Below are positions 763 through 62,528 of a DNA stretch of 64,000 nucleotides, one piece after another; position 1 is the stretch's first letter; each line of letters begins with the position of its first letter. Position numbers and translations under genes: made by a program. This DNA comes from Methylomonas paludis. GTDB taxonomy: Bacteria > Pseudomonadota > Gammaproteobacteria > Methylococcales > Methylomonadaceae. The stretch covers positions 1,736,001 through 1,800,000 of the forward strand of contig NZ_CP073754.1 in the NCBI RefSeq assembly GCF_018734325.1, in the 5' to 3' direction. The notes below the pieces were generated by a model. The model made no database searches, was not told the origin of the DNA, and saw nothing but the letters and a program-made list of their open reading frames with translations.

Positions 763-1031
763 TTAATGCCCTGAGATATTGCCTTGCACATTCTTTGCAT
801 AAATCACCAGCAAGTGAATTTCGCCATGCGCCAGACGATTGTAATAGATCACTCTAACCTCACTACGTTTTCCAGTTCCTTCACGAGCCCACCTGATTTT
901 TCGGCACTCCCCCCAGAACCCGGAACTACTGTACCCACTTCTGGATGCTCTATAAGCCAAGCGCAAAATTCTCCACGTTCGTCTTCTTTCCAAATAGACT
1001 TTGAATCATGTGTGAATAGTGGTGTTTTCAA
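763..1031 (-). pseudogene. RelE/HigB-like toxin, broken by a one-base frameshift
   Basis: Two overlapping frames together give one RelE-superfamily toxin. The 5' frame (from the ATG at 1029-1031) encodes the N-terminal part ending ...VGTVVPGSGG. The other frame continues CRKIRWAREGTGKRSEVRVI and then YYN, LLVIYAKN and a stop at 763. In intact relatives the order is PxAGxxxxGTGGxRKxRWAxxGxGKxGGxRVIYY. The frames join at the run of six C on the plus strand (909-914); one extra base there would restore a single frame of about 90 codons. The loss is therefore a -1 slip in a homopolymer, either a real inactivation or a base-calling error. If real, the module keeps its antitoxin but no toxin. Confidence 0.8.
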
Positions 1032-1053
1032 TAATGGTGTACATCTGTAGGTA

Positions 1054-1078
1054 TATTATACGTCAATGACGTATAATA
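1054..1078. promoter_or_regulatory. Perfect palindrome over the toxin-antitoxin promoter
   Basis: Twelve-base arms TATTATACGTCA (1054-1065) and TGACGTATAATA (1067-1078) flank a single base. Read on the minus strand it contains a consensus -10 box TATAAT (rc of 1055-1060), about 25 bases upstream of the toxin start at 1031. A perfect palindrome lying over a promoter in front of a toxin-antitoxin operon is the usual site for autorepression by the HTH antitoxin; that role is inferred. Confidence 0.65.
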
Positions 1079-1088
1079 ACAGCACGCT

Positions 1089-1371
1089 CGCTGAAAATCT
1101 TGGAAGCGGAACGTAAGTGGAGCGAAGATTTTTAGTCCCCGATAGGCGTAGCGCCGGGCGGGTTTTCGAAGCGAAGCGGAGAAAACCTGCAAGGCATCGC
1201 GAAACGCCGTCAAGTCACTTGGAGCCGAAGTTCCGATCCCCTTGTTGGGTCGGAACGAGGTGAGGAGGACGAATCGGGGCCGCCGGAGGCATTAGCGGTC
1301 GCGTAATTTTTGCCGCTTGTTGGGGCTGGGATGCCCCTAAACAAGCTTTCGCAAAAATAGCGACTCACTGA
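1089..1371 (+). mobile_element. 283-bp structured repeat element, copy 1
   Basis: First of four copies of a 283-bp sequence that starts CGCTGAAAATC and ends GCGACTCACTGA; identical to copies 2 and 4. The inside is rich in hairpins: AAAATCTT/AAGATTTT near the left end, GGTTTTC/GAAAACC, GTTCCGA...TCGGAAC, GGCCGC/GCGGTC, and a long one near the right end (TTTTTGC, CTTGTT, GGGGC paired with GCCCC, AACAAG, GCAAAAA). No convincing ORF, no terminal inverted repeat and no flanking duplication. This copy lies between two toxin-antitoxin modules, about 10 bases upstream of the promoter palindrome of the first. Confidence 0.85.
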
Positions 1372-1430
1372 TTTGTTTAGTTTGCAAGACACATCTCACT
1401 TTAGTTGAGTTCCGCAATCTGTAGTCTATC

Positions 1431-1730
1431 TCAAACTGTTTCAGCATGAAGTTTGACACCCAAGGCCTTAATGACTTTCATAATTGTGTCAAATCTAGGT
1501 TTGGCGCCGGGAGACAAGGCTTTATAAAGGCTTTCGCGTCCCAGTCCTGATTCCTTGGCAATCAATGACATGCCTTTAGCTTTTGCAATATAGCCCAAAG
1601 CGCGCAGCAGCTCTTCGCTGTCACCATCATCCAGAACTTGGGACAAATATTCGCTGATAGCGGCATCGTTATCGAGTAGGCTGCTTATATCAAATTCCGG
1701 CAAGCTTGCCACACTAATTTTTTTGGTCAT
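1431..1730 (-). CDS. Antitoxin of HI1420 type (addiction module antidote)
   Basis: A 99-residue protein starting MTKKISVASLPEFD (ATG at 1728-1730; an upstream in-frame start is ignored because it overlaps the toxin). It contains the LLDND...ISEYLSQVLDDGD segment and a C-terminal HTH (MSLIAKESGLGRESLYKALS, ending GVKLHA). This is the pattern of the HI1420-type antitoxins that accompany HI1419-type toxins. The toxin gene ends one base upstream of this start, so the two are translationally linked. Expected role: binding and neutralising the toxin and repressing the operon. Both genes of this module look intact, unlike the module at 363-1031. Confidence 0.85.
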   Translation of the reverse strand: MTKKISVASLPEFDISSLLDNDAAISEYLSQVLDDGDSEELLRALGYIAKAKGMSLIAKESGLGRESLYKALSPGAKPRFDTIMKVIKALGVKLHAETV

Positions 1731-37261: not shown

Positions 37262-37352
37262 GACTGCATATTAACCATGCAGTCCTGACAGCGGCATGAC
37301 GAGAACATTACAATATTGTCAGAATTGCACAATGAATCGAATATTGAACTAA

Positions 37353-37635
37353 CGCTGAAAATCTTGGAAGCGGAACGTAAGTGGAGCGAAGATTTTTAGT
37401 CCCCGATAGGCGTAGCGCCGGGCGGGTTTTCGAAGCGAAGCGGAGAAAACCTGCAAGGCATCGCGAAACGCCGTCAAGTCACTTGGAGCCGAAGTTCCGA
37501 TCCCCTTGTTGGGTCGGAACGAGGTGAGGAGGACGAATCGGGGCCGCCGGAGGCATTAGCGGTCGCGTAATTTTTGCCGCTTGTTGGGGCTGGGATGCCC
37601 CTAAACAAGCTTTCGCAAAAATAGCGACTCACTGA
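37353..37635 (+). mobile_element. 283-bp structured repeat element, copy 2
   Basis: Identical base for base to copies 1 and 4 over 283 bp. It lies 92 bases upstream of the start of the efflux operon (minus strand) and directly at the end of the hsdS remnant. Flanks GAACTAA and ACATTATC show no duplication. Its position may alter or supply a promoter for the efflux genes; the sequence does not show which. Confidence 0.85.
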
Positions 37636-48296: not shown

Positions 48297-51200
48297 ATGG
48301 CAAAACAGTTACAGCGCAGAAAAAAAGTCAGGCTAGCCCATCCTGGCGGCGATGAAACGCCGATTCGCTTTGAATTATTCAGCACCGAACGACTGACGGA
48401 ACATGCCTATAGTTTGGCTAAAGCCCAAAAAGTGGCTTATCCCAAAGTCGGGCAGCGCCTGATTCCCCGAGTCCGGGAAAACGCCGAAGTATTATTTGCC
48501 GCCTATCAAGCGGTCGCTAAGACAGTGCGCGAACAGCGCGCCATTACCCCGGCAGCAGAATGGTTGCTGGATAATTTTCATATTATTGAAGAACAAGTCA
48601 GTAATATAGACATTGATTTGCCGGAAAGCTATTACCAGGAACTGCCAAAATTGTCGGAAGGATTTCTGGTCGGTTATCCCCGCGTCTACGGTATAGTCTG
48701 GGCTTTGGTGGCGCACACCGACAGCCGCTTTACCCCGGAACTGCTGACTCTATTCGTTAATGCCTATCAGGAAGTAACACCGCTCAGTCTTGGCGAATTA
48801 TGGGCAATACCGATTACCCTGCGTGTGGTGCTGGTCGAAAACTTGCGGCGACTGGCAGTCAGTATCATGCGCTCCCAGTCTGGCCGGGAACTGGCAGATG
48901 AGTATATCGACGCAACTGAACAACTTGGCATACACAATGATAGGCCCAGCCCGGATATCGCCCCGGCGGAACTGCCGACTGAACCATTACGTCAGGCCTA
49001 TGCCGTACAGATTCTGCTGCGCTCCCACGATCCGCATCCTGCCGGCTCATTGTCTCTGGATTTTCTCAATGACTGGCTGAAACAGCAGAACCTGAGTCTG
49101 GAAGATCTGGTGCATCGCGAACATGCCGAACAAATTGCCGACAATCTGACCGTCCGCAATATCATTACCAGTATGCGCGCTATTTCCGCTTTTGAATGGC
49201 CGGATTTTATCGAAGCCGTCAGCCATGTTGATCACTGTTTACGTGGTCACCCCGGTTATGCCGCAATGGATTTTCTTACCCGCGACCGCTATCGCCATGC
49301 CATCGAAGAACTGGCCAAACGTTCTGTTTACACGGAATTAGCCATAGCCCAGCAATTGATGCTGAAAATTCAGAACATCAGCACCAGTTCAGCGGGGTTC
49401 GAACGGCTAATTGAGCCGGGCTACTACTTAATCGGTGCCGGGCGTTATGGCTTTGAAACTGAAGTCGGTTACCGGGCCAGTCTTAAGCAAAAACTGCTGC
49501 GCGGCTATGTAGCCGATTCGGGGCTGGCTTATCTGAGCAGTCTGGCCGGTTTGACGTTATTATTATTCTGCTGGCCGTTGGCGGCCAGCATCAATGCCGG
49601 ACTGGGCGGTCTGGCTATTAGCTTGATTGCTTTATGTATTCTGTTTCCGGTTTCGGATATCGCTATCGGATTTTTCAATCAATTAATCATCGCCGGTCTG
49701 CCGCCCCGGCATTTGCCGCGCCTGGAACTCAAAACCGGCGTTCCGGCAGACGTGAGTACCTTTGTCGTGGTGCCCACGCTGTTTTTTAAAGAAGCCGAGG
49801 TGCTGGATCAGGTCAGACAGATGGAAATTCACTATCTGGCCAATCCGGACGGAGCGGTGCGGTTTGCACTGTTGTCGGACTGGATCGATGCCGACCAGGA
49901 AACCCTGGCAAATGATGCCAAACTGTTAGCCTTGGCCGTCGGCGGTGTAGCGGCACTTAACACCAAATACGCTGCAGAACGATTTTTTATCTTTCACCGT
50001 AAACGCTTGTGGAATCCCAGCGAAGCCAAATGGATGGGTTGGGAACGCAAGCGCGGTAAGCTGCATGAATTTAACCGTTTATTGCGCGGCGCCACCGACA
50101 CCTCGTTTCTGGCAGTCAATGGTCAGCCCGCAGCAGCCCCTCCAGGGGTGTGTTATGTCATTACTCTGGATGCCGATACCAAATTACCGATGGGCACAGT
50201 GGCCCAATTAGTCGGCGTGGCCATGCACCCGTTAAATCAGCCGGTTTTTGACAGCAAAAGCCAGCGTATAGTTGATGGTTACGGCATACTCCAGCCGCGG
50301 GTAACGCCAACCCTGCCGCAACGCCGCGAACACTCATTGTTTCACCAGTTGTTCGCCGGCGCAGCCGGGTCGGATGCCTATGCCAGTTCGGTTTCTGAAC
50401 TCTATCAGGATTTATTTGCACTGGGTACCTATAGCGGTAAGGGTTTATATCATGTTGACAGTTTCGAAGCGGCATTAGCCGGGCGAGTGCCAGACAACAC
50501 TCAGCTGAGTCATGATCTGTTTGAAAGTGTTTACGCTCGCTGTGCACTGGTTAGTGATATTGAGTTTTTTGAAGAATTTCCTTGTCATACCGAGGTAGCG
50601 GCTTCGCGGGAACATCGCTGGGCGCGCGGCGACTGGCAGTTATTGCCCTGGATATTCGGCACCAGCGGCAGCAATATGCCCTTGTTGGGCCGCTGGAAAA
50701 TGCTCGACAACTTACGCCGTTCCCTGTCGGCACCGGCAGCATTTGCGGCGCTGGTGTTGAGTTGGGCCATTCCCGGTGCGCCGCACGCGTTGCTGACCGG
50801 CCTGGTGCTGACGGCTCTGGCTATTCCCACCATCATGGCCTGCACCAAAAGCCTGGCACCGCCCAGGCGCGGCATTTCATCGTTTACCCATTGGCGAAAC
50901 ACCTTGCAGACTGTGCTCTGGGCTATCGGTAACAGCCTGGTGGCACTGGTGTTTCTGGTGCAACATGCCTGGTTGATGACCGATGCCATCGCCAATACCC
51001 TGGTCAGATTATTAATTACCCGGCGGCGCTTGCTGAAATGGGTAACGGCCTTACAGGCCAAAAATGTTTCGGATAATACTCTAAAAAATCTGCTTAAGCC
51101 CTTGGGCCGTTCATCCTTGCTGGTGCTTGGTGCGGCGGCGGTGGTGTTAATCGGTAATCCCGCCGGATTGACGGTGGCTGCGCCGTTTATGCTGTTGTGG

Positions 51201-54200
51201 TTATTGGCCCCAATACTTGCCCGCAGCTTAAGTCTGCCACCCAAGCTGGATAAAGCCGAACAGCTGCAAGCAGGGGATGCCCAAGCCATGCGTTTGCTGG
51301 GTCGGCGTATCTGGCGGTTTTTTACCGTTTTTGTGACGGCAGACGAACATCATTTACCCCCGGACAATTTTCAGGAAGACCCGGAACCCGTTATCGCCCA
51401 GCGCAGTTCGCCCACCAATTTTGGCCTGTATCTGTTGTCGGTGGCGGCAGCCCGTGATTTTGGCTGGATCGGTCTGCTAGAGGCTATGGACAGGCTGGAG
51501 GCCAGTATGACCACACTGAACGGTCTGGCCCGGCTGAACGGTCATTTTTACAACTGGTACGATACCCGTGATTTACGAATTTTGGAACCCGCTTATATTT
51601 CCACTGTGGATAGCGGAAATCTGGCCGGACATCTGCTTACCTTGGCGGAAACCTGCCGGGAAACGCTGAGCAAACCGCTGTTGCTTAGGCACAGTTTGCC
51701 GGGTTTGATCGATACTCATGCTTTATTGACAGCCGAACTTGCCGCCATCAGTGATGATAAACGCACCTTGACGGTCACACTGGCTGAGCTACGCCAAAAA
51801 ACCTCATTACTGGGCGAGATGTTGCAAACAAGACCAGTCGATGCCCCAGCTTGGGCCGAGCTTTGGCAGAAATTGCCAAAATGTGCCGAGAATCTGCAGG
51901 ATTTGGCTAGTGCTTACGCTGCCGAACGCGGCGATGCCGAACACAGCGAAATGCTGACTTGGTGCGGATTGCTATGTGACGATATTCGTTCCCAGACCCG
52001 CGACATCGATACTTTGTTGCCCTGGATTAAGCTCACCAGCCAATTTGACGCCATTCACCTGGTAGCCAGCCAAGCCCAGCATCCCGTCTGGTGGCAGGCC
52101 GCCGTACTGGATATCCCTTTAAACCAGTTGGCAGATTTCTACACCAGGACTTTGGACGAGTGGCAGGGTATCAATGCCCCCGATTTGCCGGTGGCTAGTT
52201 TGAAGGCGTTGGTGAAATTGCGCTGGGCGGCTGAGCAAACTAATTTGTTATGCAAGCGTCTGGAACGCTTGGCGGCCCAATCGGACAAGTTGTTTAATGA
52301 GATGGATTTTGGCTTTTTGTATGACCACAAACGCCACATGCTGACCTTGGGTTATTCCGCAACAGAAGGTCGTGCTGATGACAGTTATTATGACTTGCTG
52401 GCTTCCGAGGCCAGACTGGCCAGTTTTATTGCCATTGCCAAACGTGAAGTGCCCAGCAACCACTGGTTTCATTTAGGCCGGCGCGTCACCCGCGCCGCAA
52501 AGGGTACAGTGTTGTTATCCTGGTCGGGGTCTATGTTTGAATATCTGATGCCTTCACTGGTCACATTTACTCCGCGTTACAGTCTGCTGGATCAAACCTG
52601 CCGGCTGGTGGTAAAACGCCAGATCGAGTATGGCAAAGAATGCGGCATACCTTGGGGCGTGTCGGAATCGGCGTTTAACAGCCGCGATATTGCCCTGACT
52701 TACCAGTATTCGGCGTTTGGTGTTCCCGGTCTGGGCATGAAGCGCGGACTAGGCGAAAACCGGGTGATTGCGCCTTACGCAACGGCGCTGGCCGCCATGT
52801 ATTCACCCCATGCCGCCGTGGAGAATTTTGCCCGACTTACTGAACAGGGCGCTTTGGGCCGCTATGGTTTTTACGAAGCTCTCGATTATACGCCGGTGCG
52901 GCTTTCCGAAGGCCAGCAAGTAGCGATAGTACGTTGTTATATGGCTCATCATCAGGGCATGTCCTTACTGGCATTTGCCAATGCTGTGCATGACGGAACC
53001 ATGCGTCACCGCTTTCACAATGCTGCCCTAATCCAGGCAGCGGATTTGCTGTTGCAGGAACGCATACCCCAAGGGGCCGATACCAGCAGCCTGCCTTTGA
53101 CTCAAGCCTTGGCCGAAATCAAGGAAATAGTTCAGACTCCAGTGAAACGGCTGTCGTCACCCATGTCGGCCAGTCCGTCCACTCAATTGCTTTCCAATGG
53201 CCGCTATACCGTCATGATCACCGGCTCCGGCTCCGGCTACAGTCAATGGCGTAATCTGGCCTTGACTCGCTGGCGTGAAGATGTCACCCGGGATGCCTGG
53301 GGAAGTTATCTGTATCTGCGCGATGTCGAAAGTGGACAGGTCTGGTCGGCCACTTATCAACCGACCACAGTTATCCCGGAACATTATGAGGTGGTGTTTG
53401 TAGAGGATAGGGCCAAAATCAGCCGTAGCGATTTTGATATCACCAGTACCCTGGAAATTGTGATTTCCCCGGAGGACGACGCCGAAATCCGCCGGTTGAG
53501 TTTAACTAATAACGGTATGCACAGCCGGGAAATTGAAATTACCTCCTATGCCGAGCTGGTGCTGACCAGCGCAGCAGCGGATATTGCCCATCCGGCATTT
53601 TCCAATTTATTTGTCCAAACCGAATATCGGGCGCAAAGTCGGGGTTTGATTGCGCATCGCCGCCCCCGCACCCAGGAAGATCGACCTATCTGGCTGGCCC
53701 ATGTATTGGCGGGCAGTCAGGCCAACGAAGGCCTGCAATATGAAACCGACCGCTCGCGTTTTATTGGCCGCGGCCTGAATTTACGTGCGCCGATTGCGAT
53801 CATGGATGGCCGGCCTTTGAGTAACACGGTCGGATCGGTACTTGATCCGATCTTTAGCCTGCGCACCAGGGTGCGGATTGCGGCGGGTACGACTGAACAC
53901 CTGACCTTTACCACCTTGGCAGCCTTATCCCGCCAGCATGCCGAAGATCTGGCCGACAAATATCATAACACCGAGTCCTGGGAACGGGTGTCTGCACTGG
54001 CCTGGACACATGCTCAAGTGCAACTGCATCATTTGCATACCAAACCGGAGGAAGCTCAGTTGTTTCAGGCTTTGGCCAATCGCTTGATTTATAGTGATTC
54101 TACCTTACGGCCATACGGCCGATTATTGCAGATGAACACGCTGAACGTGACCAGTTTGTGGCGCTACGGCATTTCCGGTGACCGGCCCATTATTTTGTTG

Positions 54201-57026
54201 CGGGTTAAAGAGTTGGAGGATAGGCGCATCGTCGAGCAATTGTTGCGTGCTCATGAATACTGGCGCATCAAAGGCCTAAAGGCAGATCTGCTGATTCTCA
54301 ACGAAAAAGAATTATCTTATGTAGAAGATTTACAGGCTTTGCTGGAAGCGATGGTGCGGGATATGCAATCACGCTCCACACCCGAACCGGACAGCAAAGG
54401 TGATATTTTTGTGTTGCGCATGGATCAGCTGTCCGTGGAGGAACGGGTGTTTCTGCAAAGTGTAGCCAGGGTGGTGCTGGTCAGTAATCGCGGCAGCCTG
54501 TCTGAACAATTATTAAGACATCCGCGCCCCGAAACCGCTTTTATTAACTGGCAGACCCCGGTTCCGGCACAAGATCCGCCTGAAAAACTGGCTCAACCCA
54601 CCCTGGAGTGTTTTAACGGCTTGGGTGGATTTGGCAATAACGGCAGTGAGTACGTGATTGTGCTCGATAAAGGCCAATGGACGCCGGCCCCCTGGGTTAA
54701 TGTAATCGCTAATCCGGAATTTGGCTTTATCGTCTCGGAACTGGGCAGTAGCTGTACCTGGGCCGGCAACAGCCGGGCCAACCAGCTCACACCCTGGTCT
54801 AACGATCCAGTCAGCGATGCATCCGGCGAAGTGTTTTATATCCGCGATGATCAAAGCCAGGCCTTATGGTGCCCGACCGCCTTGCCGATCCGTGTGGAAA
54901 ATGCCGCCTATCAGATCCGCCACGGTCAAGGTTACAGCTGTTTTGAACACGACTCACACGGTATCCACAGTAACCTGATGCAACTGGTCAGCCCTGATGA
55001 TCCGGTAAAAATTTCCATTCTGACTTTAAAAAATCACTCGGGTCGCACCCGCAAACTGACCGTGGCTGCCTATGTGGAATGGGTGCTAGGCGCAAGCCGC
55101 ACTGTCACCGCCAGTCATATTGTCACCGAACTCGATCCAGAGACCGGTGCTGTGTTTTCCTGTAATCCCTGGGATGCAGAATTTGGCGGGCGCTACGCCT
55201 TTGCCGATCTGAGTGGCCAGCAAACCAGCTGGACCGGTAATCGCCGGGAATTTATCGGCCGCAACGGCAGTTTACAAGCCCCGGCAGGATTATTGACGGC
55301 CAGCACGTTGAAAAACCGGCTGGGAGCCGGGCTAGATGCCTGTGCAGCCTTGCAGACCCAGGTGATACTGGCTGCAGGCGCAGAAATCGAGCTGGTTTTT
55401 GTGCTGGGCCAGGGATTGCAACGGAGTCATGCCGTAGAATTGATTAAACGGTATCGGCTAAGCGATCCAACTGCCATCCTGGAACAGGTTAAGCAATTCT
55501 GGCAGGGTGTGCTGACTACGGTGCAGATTAAAACCCCGGATCGGGAGCTGGATTTGTTAATAAACCGCTGGCTGCTGTATCAGACCCTGAGCTGCCGGAT
55601 GTGGGCCAGAGCCGGATTTTATCAGGTAGGCGGGGCGTTTGGCTTCCGGGATCAATTGCAGGACTGTATGGCTCTAGCGGTAACCCGGCCCGATTTGAGC
55701 CGCCGGCATTTGCTGTCTGCCGCTGAGCGTCAGTTTGGCGAAGGTGATGTACAGCATTGGTGGCACCCGCCTTCAGGGCGTGGTGTGCGCACCCATTTTT
55801 CCGATGATCGTCTGTGGCTAGCTTATGCCGTGGCCTATTATGTAAAAATCAGCGGCGACAACAAGATTCTGGATGTGCTTTTACCTTTTCTGGATGGCCC
55901 GACATTAGCGGCTGACCAGGAAGATGCGTATTTCCTGCCTACTGTATCTGTAGAACATGCCGGTCTATATGAACATTGCCGACGCGCCATCGATCTGAGT
56001 TTAAGCACCGGTCGACATGGATTGCCTTTAATCGGCAGCGGCGACTGGAATGATGGCATGAACCGGGTAGGTCGGGAAGGTCAAGGCGAAAGTATCTGGC
56101 TGGCCTGGTTTTTGATTGCCACACTAAAACAATTTATCCCGCTGGCCGAGTCCCATGGCGACCACGCCAGTGCCGAGCGCTGGCAACAGCATATCACCCA
56201 ATTAAAACTGGCCGTAGAAGCGGAAGGCTGGGACGGAGCCTGGTACCGGCGCGCCTATTTTGATGACGGCTCACCTTTGGGTTCGGCAGCCAATGCTGAA
56301 TGCCGGATAGATTCCATCGCCCAAAGCTGGGCGGTAATATCTGGCGCGGCAGATGGCGAACGGGCAGAGCGGGCCATGCAGTCAGTTAAAGAATATCTGG
56401 TCCGCTATGGTGATGATCTGGTTTTGCTATTTACCCCGCCGTTTGACAAAACCGAGCGCGATCCCGGCTATATCAAAAGCTATCCGCCCGGTGTGCGTGA
56501 AAACGGCGGTCAATATACTCATGCCGCCATTTGGTCGGTTATTGCCTACGCCATGCTGGGGGAAGGTGATCAGGCCGAAGAATTGCTGCGTTTGTTGAAT
56601 CCCATTAAGCGTACCAGTTCCCGCACCGGTGTTTATGCCTATAAGGTGGAACCCTATGTACTGGCCGCCGATATTTACTCGGAACCCCCTCATGTCAGAC
56701 GCGGCGGCTGGACCTGGTATACCGGTGCAGCGGGCTGGTTTTACCGGGCCGGATTGGAATCCATCCTGGGTTTGCAAATTCATGGCGATCAATTGCTGAT
56801 CAAACCTTGCATCCCCAGATCCTGGCCGAGCTACAGCATGGTGTATCAGTATCTTAACAGTCGCTATGAAATCAGCGTGGAAAATCCTGATGCAGTATGT
56901 CAGGGCGTAATTCTGGTCGAACTAGACGGTATCAGCCAGCCGGATACGACTATTGATTTACAAAACGACGGGCAGGTGCATCAGTTACGCATAATTTTAG
57001 GTGAAAACCATTTGCTGGACGGATAG
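48297..57026 (+). CDS. ndvB: Cyclic beta-1,2-glucan synthase (NdvB/ChvB type)
   Basis: A 2909-residue membrane enzyme, the usual size of NdvB (~2800-2900). Order: N-terminal cytoplasmic region; membrane segments near residues 412-465; a GT84-type glycosyltransferase domain (VITLDADTKLPMG near 620, RGDWQLLPWIFG near 776); further membrane helices (~840-990); a large beta-sandwich/linker region; and a C-terminal GH94 phosphorylase-like domain with GSGDWNDGMNRVG (acid Asp near 2580) and ENGGQYTHA (near 2735). It builds and cyclises beta-1,2-glucan and controls ring size; the product is exported to the periplasm. No ndvA exporter lies nearby. Only a small gene (57072) follows. AAGG-like ribosome site upstream. 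Confidence 0.93.
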   Translation: MAKQLQRRKKVRLAHPGGDETPIRFELFSTERLTEHAYSLAKAQKVAYPKVGQRLIPRVRENAEVLFAAYQAVAKTVREQRAITPAAEWLLDNFHIIEEQVSNIDIDLPESYYQELPKLSEGFLVGYPRVYGIVWALVAHTDSRFTPELLTLFVNAYQEVTPLSLGELWAIPITLRVVLVENLRRLAVSIMRSQSGRELADEYIDATEQLGIHNDRPSPDIAPAELPTEPLRQAYAVQILLRSHDPHPAGSLSLDFLNDWLKQQNLSLEDLVHREHAEQIADNLTVRNIITSMRAISAFEWPDFIEAVSHVDHCLRGHPGYAAMDFLTRDRYRHAIEELAKRSVYTELAIAQQLMLKIQNISTSSAGFERLIEPGYYLIGAGRYGFETEVGYRASLKQKLLRGYVADSGLAYLSSLAGLTLLLFCWPLAASINAGLGGLAISLIALCILFPVSDIAIGFFNQLIIAGLPPRHLPRLELKTGVPADVSTFVVVPTLFFKEAEVLDQVRQMEIHYLANPDGAVRFALLSDWIDADQETLANDAKLLALAVGGVAALNTKYAAERFFIFHRKRLWNPSEAKWMGWERKRGKLHEFNRLLRGATDTSFLAVNGQPAAAPPGVCYVITLDADTKLPMGTVAQLVGVAMHPLNQPVFDSKSQRIVDGYGILQPRVTPTLPQRREHSLFHQLFAGAAGSDAYASSVSELYQDLFALGTYSGKGLYHVDSFEAALAGRVPDNTQLSHDLFESVYARCALVSDIEFFEEFPCHTEVAASREHRWARGDWQLLPWIFGTSGSNMPLLGRWKMLDNLRRSLSAPAAFAALVLSWAIPGAPHALLTGLVLTALAIPTIMACTKSLAPPRRGISSFTHWRNTLQTVLWAIGNSLVALVFLVQHAWLMTDAIANTLVRLLITRRRLLKWVTALQAKNVSDNTLKNLLKPLGRSSLLVLGAAAVVLIGNPAGLTVAAPFMLLWLLAPILARSLSLPPKLDKAEQLQAGDAQAMRLLGRRIWRFFTVFVTADEHHLPPDNFQEDPEPVIAQRSSPTNFGLYLLSVAAARDFGWIGLLEAMDRLEASMTTLNGLARLNGHFYNWYDTRDLRILEPAYISTVDSGNLAGHLLTLAETCRETLSKPLLLRHSLPGLIDTHALLTAELAAISDDKRTLTVTLAELRQKTSLLGEMLQTRPVDAPAWAELWQKLPKCAENLQDLASAYAAERGDAEHSEMLTWCGLLCDDIRSQTRDIDTLLPWIKLTSQFDAIHLVASQAQHPVWWQAAVLDIPLNQLADFYTRTLDEWQGINAPDLPVASLKALVKLRWAAEQTNLLCKRLERLAAQSDKLFNEMDFGFLYDHKRHMLTLGYSATEGRADDSYYDLLASEARLASFIAIAKREVPSNHWFHLGRRVTRAAKGTVLLSWSGSMFEYLMPSLVTFTPRYSLLDQTCRLVVKRQIEYGKECGIPWGVSESAFNSRDIALTYQYSAFGVPGLGMKRGLGENRVIAPYATALAAMYSPHAAVENFARLTEQGALGRYGFYEALDYTPVRLSEGQQVAIVRCYMAHHQGMSLLAFANAVHDGTMRHRFHNAALIQAADLLLQERIPQGADTSSLPLTQALAEIKEIVQTPVKRLSSPMSASPSTQLLSNGRYTVMITGSGSGYSQWRNLALTRWREDVTRDAWGSYLYLRDVESGQVWSATYQPTTVIPEHYEVVFVEDRAKISRSDFDITSTLEIVISPEDDAEIRRLSLTNNGMHSREIEITSYAELVLTSAAADIAHPAFSNLFVQTEYRAQSRGLIAHRRPRTQEDRPIWLAHVLAGSQANEGLQYETDRSRFIGRGLNLRAPIAIMDGRPLSNTVGSVLDPIFSLRTRVRIAAGTTEHLTFTTLAALSRQHAEDLADKYHNTESWERVSALAWTHAQVQLHHLHTKPEEAQLFQALANRLIYSDSTLRPYGRLLQMNTLNVTSLWRYGISGDRPIILLRVKELEDRRIVEQLLRAHEYWRIKGLKADLLILNEKELSYVEDLQALLEAMVRDMQSRSTPEPDSKGDIFVLRMDQLSVEERVFLQSVARVVLVSNRGSLSEQLLRHPRPETAFINWQTPVPAQDPPEKLAQPTLECFNGLGGFGNNGSEYVIVLDKGQWTPAPWVNVIANPEFGFIVSELGSSCTWAGNSRANQLTPWSNDPVSDASGEVFYIRDDQSQALWCPTALPIRVENAAYQIRHGQGYSCFEHDSHGIHSNLMQLVSPDDPVKISILTLKNHSGRTRKLTVAAYVEWVLGASRTVTASHIVTELDPETGAVFSCNPWDAEFGGRYAFADLSGQQTSWTGNRREFIGRNGSLQAPAGLLTASTLKNRLGAGLDACAALQTQVILAAGAEIELVFVLGQGLQRSHAVELIKRYRLSDPTAILEQVKQFWQGVLTTVQIKTPDRELDLLINRWLLYQTLSCRMWARAGFYQVGGAFGFRDQLQDCMALAVTRPDLSRRHLLSAAERQFGEGDVQHWWHPPSGRGVRTHFSDDRLWLAYAVAYYVKISGDNKILDVLLPFLDGPTLAADQEDAYFLPTVSVEHAGLYEHCRRAIDLSLSTGRHGLPLIGSGDWNDGMNRVGREGQGESIWLAWFLIATLKQFIPLAESHGDHASAERWQQHITQLKLAVEAEGWDGAWYRRAYFDDGSPLGSAANAECRIDSIAQSWAVISGAADGERAERAMQSVKEYLVRYGDDLVLLFTPPFDKTERDPGYIKSYPPGVRENGGQYTHAAIWSVIAYAMLGEGDQAEELLRLLNPIKRTSSRTGVYAYKVEPYVLAADIYSEPPHVRRGGWTWYTGAAGWFYRAGLESILGLQIHGDQLLIKPCIPRSWPSYSMVYQYLNSRYEISVENPDAVCQGVILVELDGISQPDTTIDLQNDGQVHQLRIILGENHLLDG

Positions 57027-59809: not shown

Positions 59810-61427
59810 TTAGCTGGCGGCTAATTTAGCATAGGTAGCCTCGAAAGCCTTAAAGCCAGTGCAGGCAGCGGAAAACCGCAGTTTCAGGCGGCGGCCGGTT
59901 CGGATGACCCTCGCAGCTAGGTACATGAGTTCCTGCATAACCGTTTTGATGCGCCGCCGTTTGGCAGGGTGTCTAACGGGACTGATGTCGCCGAGTAAGC
60001 CTATCAGGCCGATCCAGCGCAAAATGTTGTAGCTGTAGGCGCTCAAGGTCATAATCAGATCGTTGGTGGCAAATTTGCCGGACGGCAAGCGCTCAATGTC
60101 CAGATCAGTTTTGAATTCACTGTGAAATTGTTCGGCAGTGGCATGATCCCGGTACAGGGCGATGATGTGGGCGTCATCGTAGTGCGATTGATCCAGGGAA
60201 GTCCACCAACCTTCGATTTCGATGTCGGGTATCAACAGCATTTGGCCGCTGGCCGTGGTGGTGCGTTCGGTGATTTGCATGACGCGGCGGAAGCGATAGG
60301 TTTTATCGCTACGGGTCTGTTGCTCTTCCACGCTGAACAGCGCAACGCGCTTGCCTTCTCGTGGACTTGTCCATTGACCTTTTTGTTCGGCTTGCGCTAA
60401 CCAGGTTTCAACGTCTTGTTTGCGCGGATTCCATTTCACAATGAAATCGACTTGCTCGTCACCGCTCAGCCAGATGCGGGTATCCAGTGCATCATGACCG
60501 CTATCCAGGCGTACCAGCAATGGCTTATCGGTCAGACGTTTGGCGGCAGGAATGACGCGTTCCAGGGTATATTGAAATTCGGATTGGCTCAGTGAGTCGC
60601 TATTTTTGCGAAAGCTTGTTTAGGGGCATCCCAGCCCCAACAAGCGGCAAAAATTACGCGACCGCTAATGCCTCCGGCGGCCCCGATTCGTCCTCCTCAC
60701 CTCGTTCCGACCCAACAAGGGGATCGGAACTTCGGCTCCAAGTGACTTGACGGCGTTTCGCGATGCCTTGCAGGTTTTCTCCACTTCGCTTCGAAAACCC
60801 GCCCGGCGCTACGCCTATCGGGGACTAAAAATCTTCGCTCCACTTACGTTCCGCTTCCAAGATTTTCAGCGAATGCTGTTTGCCCACTCTGAGTTCATTG
60901 GTCAAACACCAGCCTTCGTTACCCAAATAAGCGGCTATCGGTGCGTAACCGTCATAGCCTTTGTAGGTTCTGGAGATGCCTTCCTTGCGGGTCTTCTCGT
61001 TATTCATGGGGTAGACATCCATATCCAGTGCCACATGGCCGGTTTTTAAGGGGGTGACGGGGACTTGTGCCTCAACCATGAAGTCGATATTGCTGTTATA
61101 GACAATGGGCAATAATGCTTCGGCTTGCTCATCCAGGCGCTGTCTGAGGCGTGCGGTTGAAGGCACTTGCTTAATTGATAGGGATGATTTGAAATACAAG
61201 TCGTGACGATAGTTTTCAATGGCTTCAAAGTCGCTTTTCCCTAAGCATAAGGTCCCCATATAGGATTTGATAATGTCGCTGTGCGCTATGCCGTGCCGCA
61301 GTGGTATACCGCTTTTCAGCGCTTGATTAAGTTTGCCGTATTGGTTTAGGCATAAACCCACTAAGGCTAACCCAGAATGGCTGGTATAAATTTCCGTTTC
61401 GGATTGTTCAAGGATAAAATGTTCCAT
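59810..61427 (-). pseudogene. IS1380 transposase split by the 283-bp element
   Basis: N-terminal part (61427 to 60872): MEHFILEQSETEIYTSHSGL up to NELRVGKQH. C-terminal part (60588 to 59810): QSEFQYTLERVIPAAKRLTD, LLVRLDSGHDALD (catalytic Asp region), YRDHATAEQFHSEFKTDLDI (catalytic Glu region). Deleting bases 60589-60871 gives KQHCQSEFQ; IS1380 transposases typically have QHC at this place, so the join is exact and in frame. The transposase is therefore inactive as DNA stands, unless the element is removed from RNA. Confidence 0.85.
60589..60871 (-). mobile_element. 283-bp structured repeat element, copy 3 (inside transposase)
   Basis: Same 283 bp in the minus orientation, that is, in the sense of the transposase. 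One base differs from the other copies (A at 60783 instead of G). Flanks on the transposase strand are CAGCATT and GCCAATCC; no duplication. The pre-insertion site reads GCATT-GCCAAT. Confidence 0.9.
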
Positions 61428-61534: not shown

Positions 61535-62528
61535 TTAAAAAGCCCGAATAGCACGCACCCCAAACTCATTGCCCTTATCGACGTTGGAGTACTGGAAGCC
61601 ATTGTTGAAGTTCTGATACCACGCATAGTTTTGGTCGTACTCGGTAGAACTCCAATAGCTATTGTTGTAGTTAACAAAACCACCTACAACTTTACTTTCC
61701 TGATATAACCATTTCAACTCTTGTTTTGAAGGTAAGTACCAGTCACCATAACAGCTTTCTGTTGTTGAACCCGAACAAGCCGTGATGCCATCGTCATGAA
61801 TGCTGTAATTTGCAGCCAATAGTGCGGCAAAATTAGCGAGCGGAGCATCGCGGATTTGAGTGGCTACTTCTATAGTGGTATTCATAGCACCTGCAAACAG
61901 TCCATCACCTGAAGTGCCGACAATACCAAAATTTCCATTATTCCATGGTGCTGAGCCTTGGTCGGCCCTTGCCGCGATTAAACCGTGTTGACCATCAGCA
62001 GAAACGTAAAATATGATCCCTCCCTGATAAGAGTCACCTTTTTTATGAATGGTGACCCCTATACCCGCAGGGCCTTGTATACCCTGAGTGCCGCGAGGCC
62101 CTGCTGGGCCTTGTACGCCTTGAGGGCCACGAGGACCAGCCGGGCCTTGAGAACCTGTTGTAACTGCTTGAGCAGTAGTAATAAATAGCGTTACTAATGC
62201 CAGCATTTCAGTGAGTCGCTATTTTTGCGAAAGCTTGTTTAGGGGCATCCCAGCCCCAACAAGCGGCAAAAATTACGCGACCGCTAATGCCTCCGGCGGC
62301 CCCGATTCGTCCTCCTCACCTCGTTCCGACCCAACAAGGGGATCGGAACTTCGGCTCCAAGTGACTTGACGGCGTTTCGCGATGCCTTGCAGGTTTTCTC
62401 CGCTTCGCTTCGAAAACCCGCCCGGCGCTACGCCTATCGGGGACTAAAAATCTTCGCTCCACTTACGTTCCGCTTCCAAGATTTTCAGCGGAAGCAATTG
62501 TTAGTGGTTTTAGAGTTTTGTTTAACAT
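61535..62528 (-). pseudogene. Collagen-like DUF1566 exported protein, signal peptide split by the 283-bp element
   Basis: The downstream part (62206 to 61535, 223 residues) has a short hydrophobic start, Gly-X-Y collagen-like repeats (GSQGPAGPRGPQGVQGPAGP) and a DUF1566-like domain (GGIIFYVSADGQHGLIAA, CYGDWYLPSKQELKWLY, YWSSTEYDQNYAWYQNF). Upstream of copy 4 an ATG at 62526-62528 opens MLNKTLKPLTIA. Removing 62208-62490 fuses this through a Ser codon to MLALVTLFITTAQA, giving a textbook signal peptide (n-region with lysines, h-region, AQA cleavage) and a 236-residue protein. Without removal, translation could restart at the ATG at 62206, giving a weak signal without the basic n-region. Confidence 0.8.
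62208..62490 (-). mobile_element. 283-bp structured repeat element, copy 4 (inside a signal-peptide coding region)
   Basis: Identical to copies 1 and 2, in the sense orientation of the collagen-like gene. Flanks on the gene strand are ATTGCTTC and AATGCTGG without duplication. The target opposite strand reads CCAGCATT-GAAGC, sharing CAGCATT-G with the copy 3 target (ACAGCATT-GCCAA), but in the other orientation. Confidence 0.9.

Follow-up and report, generated by a model that had tools for sequence, protein, structure and literature searches.

What moves a short DNA element that carries no gene? The question is raised by a 64,000-nucleotide stretch of the Methylomonas paludis genome (the window; contig NZ_CP073754.1, positions 1,736,001 to 1,800,000), in which a structured element of 283 bp is present in four copies, three identical and one with a single-base difference, all at the coordinates given in a preliminary description of this DNA. 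The host genome (G000) is a single contig of 3.67 Mb and contains 23 full-length copies and two decayed relics, the many constant-ended copies that the preliminary description had proposed to look for; 19 of the full-length copies are identical to the reference (copy 1 of Table 1), three have one substitution, and one is shorter by one base. The answer proposed here, to which we give about an even chance on sequence grounds, is that this is a transposase-less structured element that is cut and rejoined by the topoisomerase I of its host (TopA, a type IA enzyme).

The insertions are exact. Copy 3 lies in a DDE transposase gene of an insertion sequence (IS) that we take to be IS1380-like, and an intact copy of this IS elsewhere in the genome (locus L086, G000:C1:1376195) is 100% identical over 800 bp of the joined flanks. 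The empty site reads GGCAAACAGCATT^GCCAATCC, giving an unambiguous boundary with a 0-bp duplication and a 0-bp loss, and the insertion therefore added exactly 283 bp; copy 3 is the one copy for which an empty site was compared directly. Of 110 copies with both ends defined, 36, from many genomes, interrupt an open reading frame (ORF) that continues in frame across the joined flanks; such an ORF had to be at least 170 aa long and 1.4 times as long as the next candidate, and the count has no chance control. The joined flanks of copy 1 are spanned by no ORF of at least 80 aa. Flank inspection and the empty site both bear out the earlier statement that there are no terminal inverted repeats (TIRs) and no target duplications, and the longest closed ORF within the 110 copies is 79 aa, most being below 60 aa, as expected of an element described as having no gene. 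An ordinary miniature inverted-repeat transposable element (MITE) that depends on an unseen DDE element would also be short, multicopy and gene-less, and so would a conserved regulatory RNA gene that recombination had duplicated, but neither agrees with the lack of TIRs and duplications, the exact ends, or the insertion into unrelated ORFs and an IS, and both are contradicted by the empty site; we give this explanation next to no credence.

The targets share a simple rule, C-N-N-N^element, with C four positions to the left of the insertion (-4) in 105 of the 110 copies (p = 7e-59). When the left end alone is considered the count is 117 of 122, twelve of these rows having been dropped from the comparison of both ends for want of a definable right end. 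The preliminary description saw no tetranucleotide common to the left flanks of the window copies (CGCT, CTAA, CATT and CTTC), but all four carry C at -4, as do 22 of the 23 full-length copies in the genome. The target consensus is TCNTY^W: at -5 there are 47 T and 5 C in the 110 targets, at -2 53 T, at -1 43 T (80 pyrimidines), and at +1 78 A or T. A or C is preferred at -3; all of these preferences are weaker than that for C at -4, and there is little information beyond these positions. The right end of the element obeys the same rule, with C at -4 in 108 of 110 copies, right-end positions being assigned by patterns from the points where copies in the same genome cease to be alike. The last four bases are CTGA, CCGA, CCGG or CTTG in Methylomonas kin, with a few variants, and CCGG, CCAG, CGCT, CCGC, CTTG or CTTA in other carriers.

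In a second, largely separate set, 52 of 53 copies have C at -4, and T is found at -5 in 27, at -2 in 23 and at -1 in 28, the commonest bases from -5 to -1 being T, C, C/A, T and T. Eleven of these are from Methylotuvimicrobium buryatense, on the same contig as genome G046, and without them the count is 41 of 42; 65 nhmmer hits that did not reach the left end or had no flank were skipped, and exact duplicate flanks were merged. In six distant genomes scored by eye, the target C is present in 23 of 25 copies (G134, 8/9; G063, 4/4; G426, 1/1; G365, 4/4; G130, 3/3; G110, 3/4), and two copies in G332 with an unclear left end are without it. This precise insertion rule is a new fact.

A rule of this kind is known from bacterial topoisomerase I. 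The in vivo binding and cleavage motif of the E. coli enzyme (EcTopoI) is AT-rich with a central TCNTTA/T, in which the C four nucleotides 5' of the cut is needed for cleavage (PMC9352719). In PMC6101483 and PMC7587558, C at -4 is described as a rule of bacterial topoisomerase I and reverse gyrase and not of topoisomerase III, the enzymes leave a 5'-phosphotyrosine and a 3'-OH, and the enzyme type has RNA topoisomerase activity. Our target consensus was derived before the motif of PMC9352719 was consulted; that topoisomerase I favours C at -4 is background knowledge. The targets resemble bacterial topoisomerase I cleavage sites in the TCNTT^A/T motif with its required C, and the informative positions (-5, -4, -2, -1 and +1) all agree with the EcTopoI motif, save that -1 also takes C. 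The exact sequence TCNTT^W occurs at 9 of 110 targets against 0.25 expected, and given C at -4 the motif score is 2.04, whereas C positions in the background score 1.26 and the highest of 20,000 resamples reaches 1.62. The C at -4 points to a concrete machinery: the ends and targets carry the cleavage signature of topoisomerase I, and TopA may be the enzyme that leaves it.

The element is also conserved in its fold. The core consists of a long-range CCCCGAT/ATCGGGG stem, two multi-helix arms and a GCCGNAGGC hairpin, and lies between a 5' hairpin and an exchangeable 3' domain (Table 1). Covariation in the helices, put forward earlier as a check, is present: two-sided changes affect 25 of 44 pairs in 22 sequences from relatives, and 37 of 44 in a class-wide set of 37 sequences whose alignment was fitted to the covariance model (R1) and leans towards it. 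For both sets none of 500 shuffles attains the observed values, although sequences that are related can exceed shuffles, and slid controls are far lower. G-U pairs far outnumber A-C mismatches (177 and 10 cells in a 31-sequence alignment), and the + strand is therefore the folded strand. Folded as RNA, the + strand of copy 1 has a z-score of -4.4 with none of 200 shuffles as good, compared to -1.8 with nine shuffles as good when folded as DNA; mean values for 15 elements are -4.4 and -3.2 for RNA (+ and - strands) and -3.4 and -2.7 for DNA. These models favour an RNA fold over a fold of single-stranded DNA. Rfam families all score below their gathering thresholds in the window, and relaxed Rfam scans of copy 1 and 16 other loci gave weak unrelated matches only; a structured RNA family of class-wide extent that has no entry in Rfam is a further new fact.

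Two explanations that centre on RNA have to be weighed against these data. In the first, a structured RNA inserts by a reverse-splicing-like or target-primed reaction and is copied to DNA by a reverse transcriptase (RT) or a host polymerase. The RNA-like fold with its G-U pairs, few A-C mismatches and strong covariation would suit such retro-insertion, as would the coincidence of element ends with structure ends and the left-truncated copies, whose targets have C at -4 in five of nine cases compared to three of nine at their own break points. Gene-interrupting copies are 14 in sense and 22 in antisense orientation, however, and insertion into mRNA is therefore unlikely; moreover, the element is not a group I or II intron by Rfam, no sigma-70-like promoter was found in window positions 1000-1450 around copy 1, and the RT domain RVT_1 is absent from 4 of 19 carriers, two of them 100% complete. 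We consider retro-insertion quite unlikely. In the second, the element is what remains of an IscB/TnpB element (omega-RNA type) when only the guide RNA is retained, and an RNA-guided nuclease maintains it in trans. This would be consistent with a standalone structured RNA that ends at the element end; HEARO RNAs, too, are structured and mobile and similar in size to the element here. HEARO RNA belongs to IscB-type nucleases (PMC9755519). There is no Rfam gathering match, HEARO is not among the weak matches, the target requires C at -4 only, and a TnpB domain is matched in just 3 of 19 carriers and absent from 16 (IscB itself was not searched), so that we regard an omega-RNA origin as very improbable.

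The family extends well beyond Methylomonas paludis. Matches are present in 49 of 101 genomes (G000 and 100 relatives), often many per genome, and copies are near-identical inside one genome and differ among genomes. Model R1 matches 25 of 369 Gammaproteobacteria, G000 included. A DNA pattern search found at least 80 loci, among them loci in Methylococcus, Methylocaldum, Methylotuvimicrobium, Bathymodiolus methanotrophic symbionts, Thiotrichales and other metagenome-assembled genomes, and R1 has 100 matches within those 80 listed loci; there is no R1 match at the listed Roseococcus, Streptomyces, Frankia and Planctomycetota loci, and searches of phages, two viral-contig patterns and E. coli genomes gave no match. 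In G032 and G005, two genomes of the same genus, the element is present at the coordinates of Methylomonas plasmids CP157006.1 and NZ_CP123898.1. The 110 copies are 269-309 bp long, repeats compared within genomes among R1-matched Gammaproteobacteria have units of about 250-302 bp, and the family overall spans about 250-310 bp. Partial matches to positions 1-203, 1-133 and 188-278 come from sister subfamilies, about 270-310 bp in length, in which the 3' domain has been exchanged. A longer autonomous relative sharing the ends had been predicted, and none was seen among the copies inspected: the partial matches that were followed are same-size sister subfamilies, and the alignment of the G056 type (178-272) covers just 104 bp. 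As no more than seven matches per genome were scored in the wide searches, a rare long form could be missed. The element is real, widespread, and outside the named families tested.

No Y1, RAYT, RT or TnpB gene is common to all tested carriers. Y1 transposases are found in G000 and in 19 of 25 carriers in all, and RAYT matches in 17 of 18 tested (above the family cut-off in 14), leaving one without. G130, a 100% complete genome with two copies identical over 247 bp (one on a 3.5-kb contig), has none of the four. Pfam searches of 30 chosen ORFs at distant-copy loci revealed no family of recombinases or nucleases that recurs; there were two occurrences each of methyltransferase and response-regulator domains, and one each of an IS110 transposase, a phage integrase, a group II intron RT and a Y1 transposase. 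Clustering of 752 ORFs around the 80 loci gave one cluster in five assemblies and four more in three to four, and the four members looked up are a multicopper oxidase, a family-less protein, a short-chain dehydrogenase and an HD/response-regulator protein. There is thus no recurrent recombinase gene near the element in the loci examined. At L143 (G063:C1:1945258-1945433) a Y1_Tnp (IS200-like) gene is in two halves, at model positions 54/55, with a distant family member between them, and another distant member, at L154 (G429), is overlapped by the RT gene of a group II intron on the opposite strand.

These searches bear on a further explanation, movement in trans by a dedicated transposase for single strands, an HUH (Y1) enzyme of the IS200/IS605 or RAYT kind. 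Such an enzyme would make its cuts after the CNNN at either end, and the element would travel as a single-stranded circle. Clean insertion, asymmetric ends, and a tetramer cut site in both target and right end are as in IS200/IS605; G000 has nine RAYT and six Y1_Tnp matches, most carriers tested have RAYT, and five copies (in G000, G031 and G013) are within about 0.2-1.5 kb of a RAYT match. One RAYT gene of the host genome lies 178 bp from an element copy (G000:C1:2385117-2386014, L140). Against this, Y1 is absent from 6 of 25 carriers, G130 among them, and according to PMC8266576 the cut of known TnpA_REP/RAYT enzymes falls at C|T (or CA), which places C at -1, and IS200/IS605 cut sites are set by guide sequences, whereas here C alone is fixed and there is no consistent guide pairing. 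The IS608-type pairing of TTAG with CTGA in G000 is not retained in other genomes. Nor is there an overall replichore strand bias (43 to 35 over six genomes, a hand count with the origin assumed opposite dif); the bias is strong only in G018 (8 of 9 full-length copies), and flank GC skew is -0.001 +/- 0.015 in G000 and +0.014 +/- 0.006 at other loci. A dedicated HUH enzyme seems to us fairly unlikely.

Transposition by topoisomerase I could proceed as follows. At each end of the element, TopA would cleave the folded single strand 3' of the CNNN and so create 3'-OH and 5'-phosphotyrosine termini; its substrate might be the displaced + strand of an R-loop, supercoil-extruded DNA, or RNA itself. 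Crosswise resealing, flank to flank and element end to element end, would yield a restored flank and a circle, whose junction (...CTGA^CGCTG...) would retain C at -4; the circle could then be reopened at this junction and inserted in a single-stranded target that TopA has cut. The role of the fold would be to hold the two ends close to each other and to recruit TopA. The structured core speaks for a step as RNA or ribonucleoprotein; that there is no transcriptional strand bias and no universal RT speaks for a DNA target and perhaps a DNA intermediate. Type IA topoisomerases are present in every organism (PMC7587558), and a universal host enzyme would explain why carriers have no dedicated gene in common, but some carriers may have lost a dedicated enzyme. 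That this is the first recombinase-less mobile element to use a host type IA topoisomerase as its transposase, by way of a folded single strand (possibly RNA) that presents two cut sites, is a claim we hold at slightly less than even confidence.

Several points weigh against the topoisomerase. The literature search found no report of TopA strand transfer between two sites in cells, and to our knowledge topoisomerase I cleavage is not known as a transposition system; the open-access literature searched contains no description of the element or of topoisomerase-driven transposition. EcTopoI prefers T^A, yet C is common at -1 here (37 of 110), the surroundings of the targets are only mildly AT-rich (53% rising to 58-61%), and the right ends are not AT-rich. 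Five of the 110 targets have no C at -4, and truncated copies give mixed counts: the flank has C at -4 in five of nine left-truncated copies (p = 0.04), and the break point in three of nine left-truncated and two of seven right-truncated ones. DNA folding also beats shuffles (mean z of -3.4 compared to -4.4 for RNA in the 15 elements), and the fold may not be needed at the level of RNA. If TopA is universal, the patchy spread among genomes (25 of 369) must come from the element. A single-strand cutter with the same rule but outside Pfam is possible.

The element shares features with several known systems and departs from each of them. As in IS200/IS605 and its gene-less derivatives, insertion is clean, without TIRs or duplication, the ends are structured, and a cut site is present in target and right end, but the element has no tnpA, fixed target tetramer or overall replichore bias, no guide covariation was found, and there is a covarying core of about 160 nt. 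REP/REPIN sequences moved by RAYT (TnpA_REP) are likewise gene-less folded repeats moved in trans, and RAYT is present in most carriers tested, but they are short, GTAG-tagged palindromes cut at C^T, unlike the 283-nt multi-helix body and C-N-N-N^ rule seen here. HEARO and IscB omega RNAs are structured mobile RNA elements of similar size; the element here lacks Rfam similarity and a nuclease gene, and has a different target rule. Group II introns also insert a structured RNA exactly and without duplication, but there is no Rfam intron match, the conserved ends of group I and II introns are not seen, there is no multi-base matched target, and RT is not common to carriers. IS110 elements with their bridge RNA have a core dinucleotide at both junctions and a multi-base target match, whereas only C at -4 is common here (IS110 genes were not searched). 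The preliminary reading of a mobile, structured, trans-acting, gene-less element that is neither a MITE nor a normal IS200/IS605 derivative is thus supported, and the outcomes it named as fatal, a longer known element or an Rfam or intron identity, did not appear in the copies and Rfam scans.

Table 1. The element, its parts and its targets in the 64-kb window (positions are those of the window).
Feature	Position	Strand	Remarks
Element copy 1 (reference)	1089..1371	+	283 bp; right-terminal tetramer CTGA at 1368-1371
Target tetramer CGCT left of copy 1	1085..1088	+	C at -4 is 1085
5' hairpin P0 of copy 1	1090..1136	+	Minimum-energy fold; both sides covary in relatives by eye, outside the counted structure
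Conserved structured core	1132..1293	+	Covariance model R1, 162 nt, 44 pairs
Exchangeable 3' domain	1294..1371	+	Long imperfect hairpin, then CNNN end
Element copy 2	37353..37635	+	Identical to reference; target tetramer CTAA at 37349-37352
Interrupted DDE_Tnp_1_4 transposase gene	59810..61427	-	ORFs 59810-60520 and 60825-61427; the second starts within the element
Element copy 3	60589..60871	-	One substitution (99.65%); in IS1380-like DDE transposase gene; target tetramer CATT at 60875-60872
Element copy 4	62208..62490	-	Identical to reference; near start of Lcl_C-domain protein gene; target tetramer CTTC at 62494-62491

We note some further features of the copies and their surroundings. Copy 1 is flanked by genes for an MqsA-like helix-turn-helix antitoxin (363-734) and a HI1420-type addiction-module antidote (1431-1772), and the window also contains an ORF of 2909 aa (48297-57026). 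Nine of the 23 full-length copies in the host genome are within 143 kb (G000:C1:1737089-1879747), with dif at 2.047 Mb; in other genomes, an element fragment lies 10 bp from dif (G018:C1:2287533-2287594, L458) and a copy 1.6 kb from it (G009:C2:1087972). Contigs of the Bathymodiolus japonicus symbiont (L330, L388 and L380) have dense islands, each with seven core matches within 8 kb, of several subfamilies and in both orientations. On plasmid G032:C2 (L194 2034-4341, and L195) two copies are split at about position 100 by a group II intron-like insert, and the element acts here as an intron home; the L194 insert is about 2.0 kb with an RT matching TIGR04416, and the second split copy is rearranged. 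In G063 (L271) a copy (427-724) is about 190 bp from four evenly spaced CRISPR-repeat-like matches (911-1155; CRISPR-DR32, below gathering score).

The topoisomerase reading is the best available and can be tested directly, and we would put about half of our confidence in it. Even without the enzyme, a class-wide structured RNA family that Rfam lacks and the C-N-N-N^ rule are new, directly testable facts. If the reading is true, this would be transposition without a transposase, in which a folded strand hijacks a universal housekeeping enzyme, and the family would be a new class of bacterial mobile RNA or single-stranded DNA element. Topoisomerase I would gain a role in genome plasticity, and the insertions in these genomes would be natural fossil records of its cutting in vivo.
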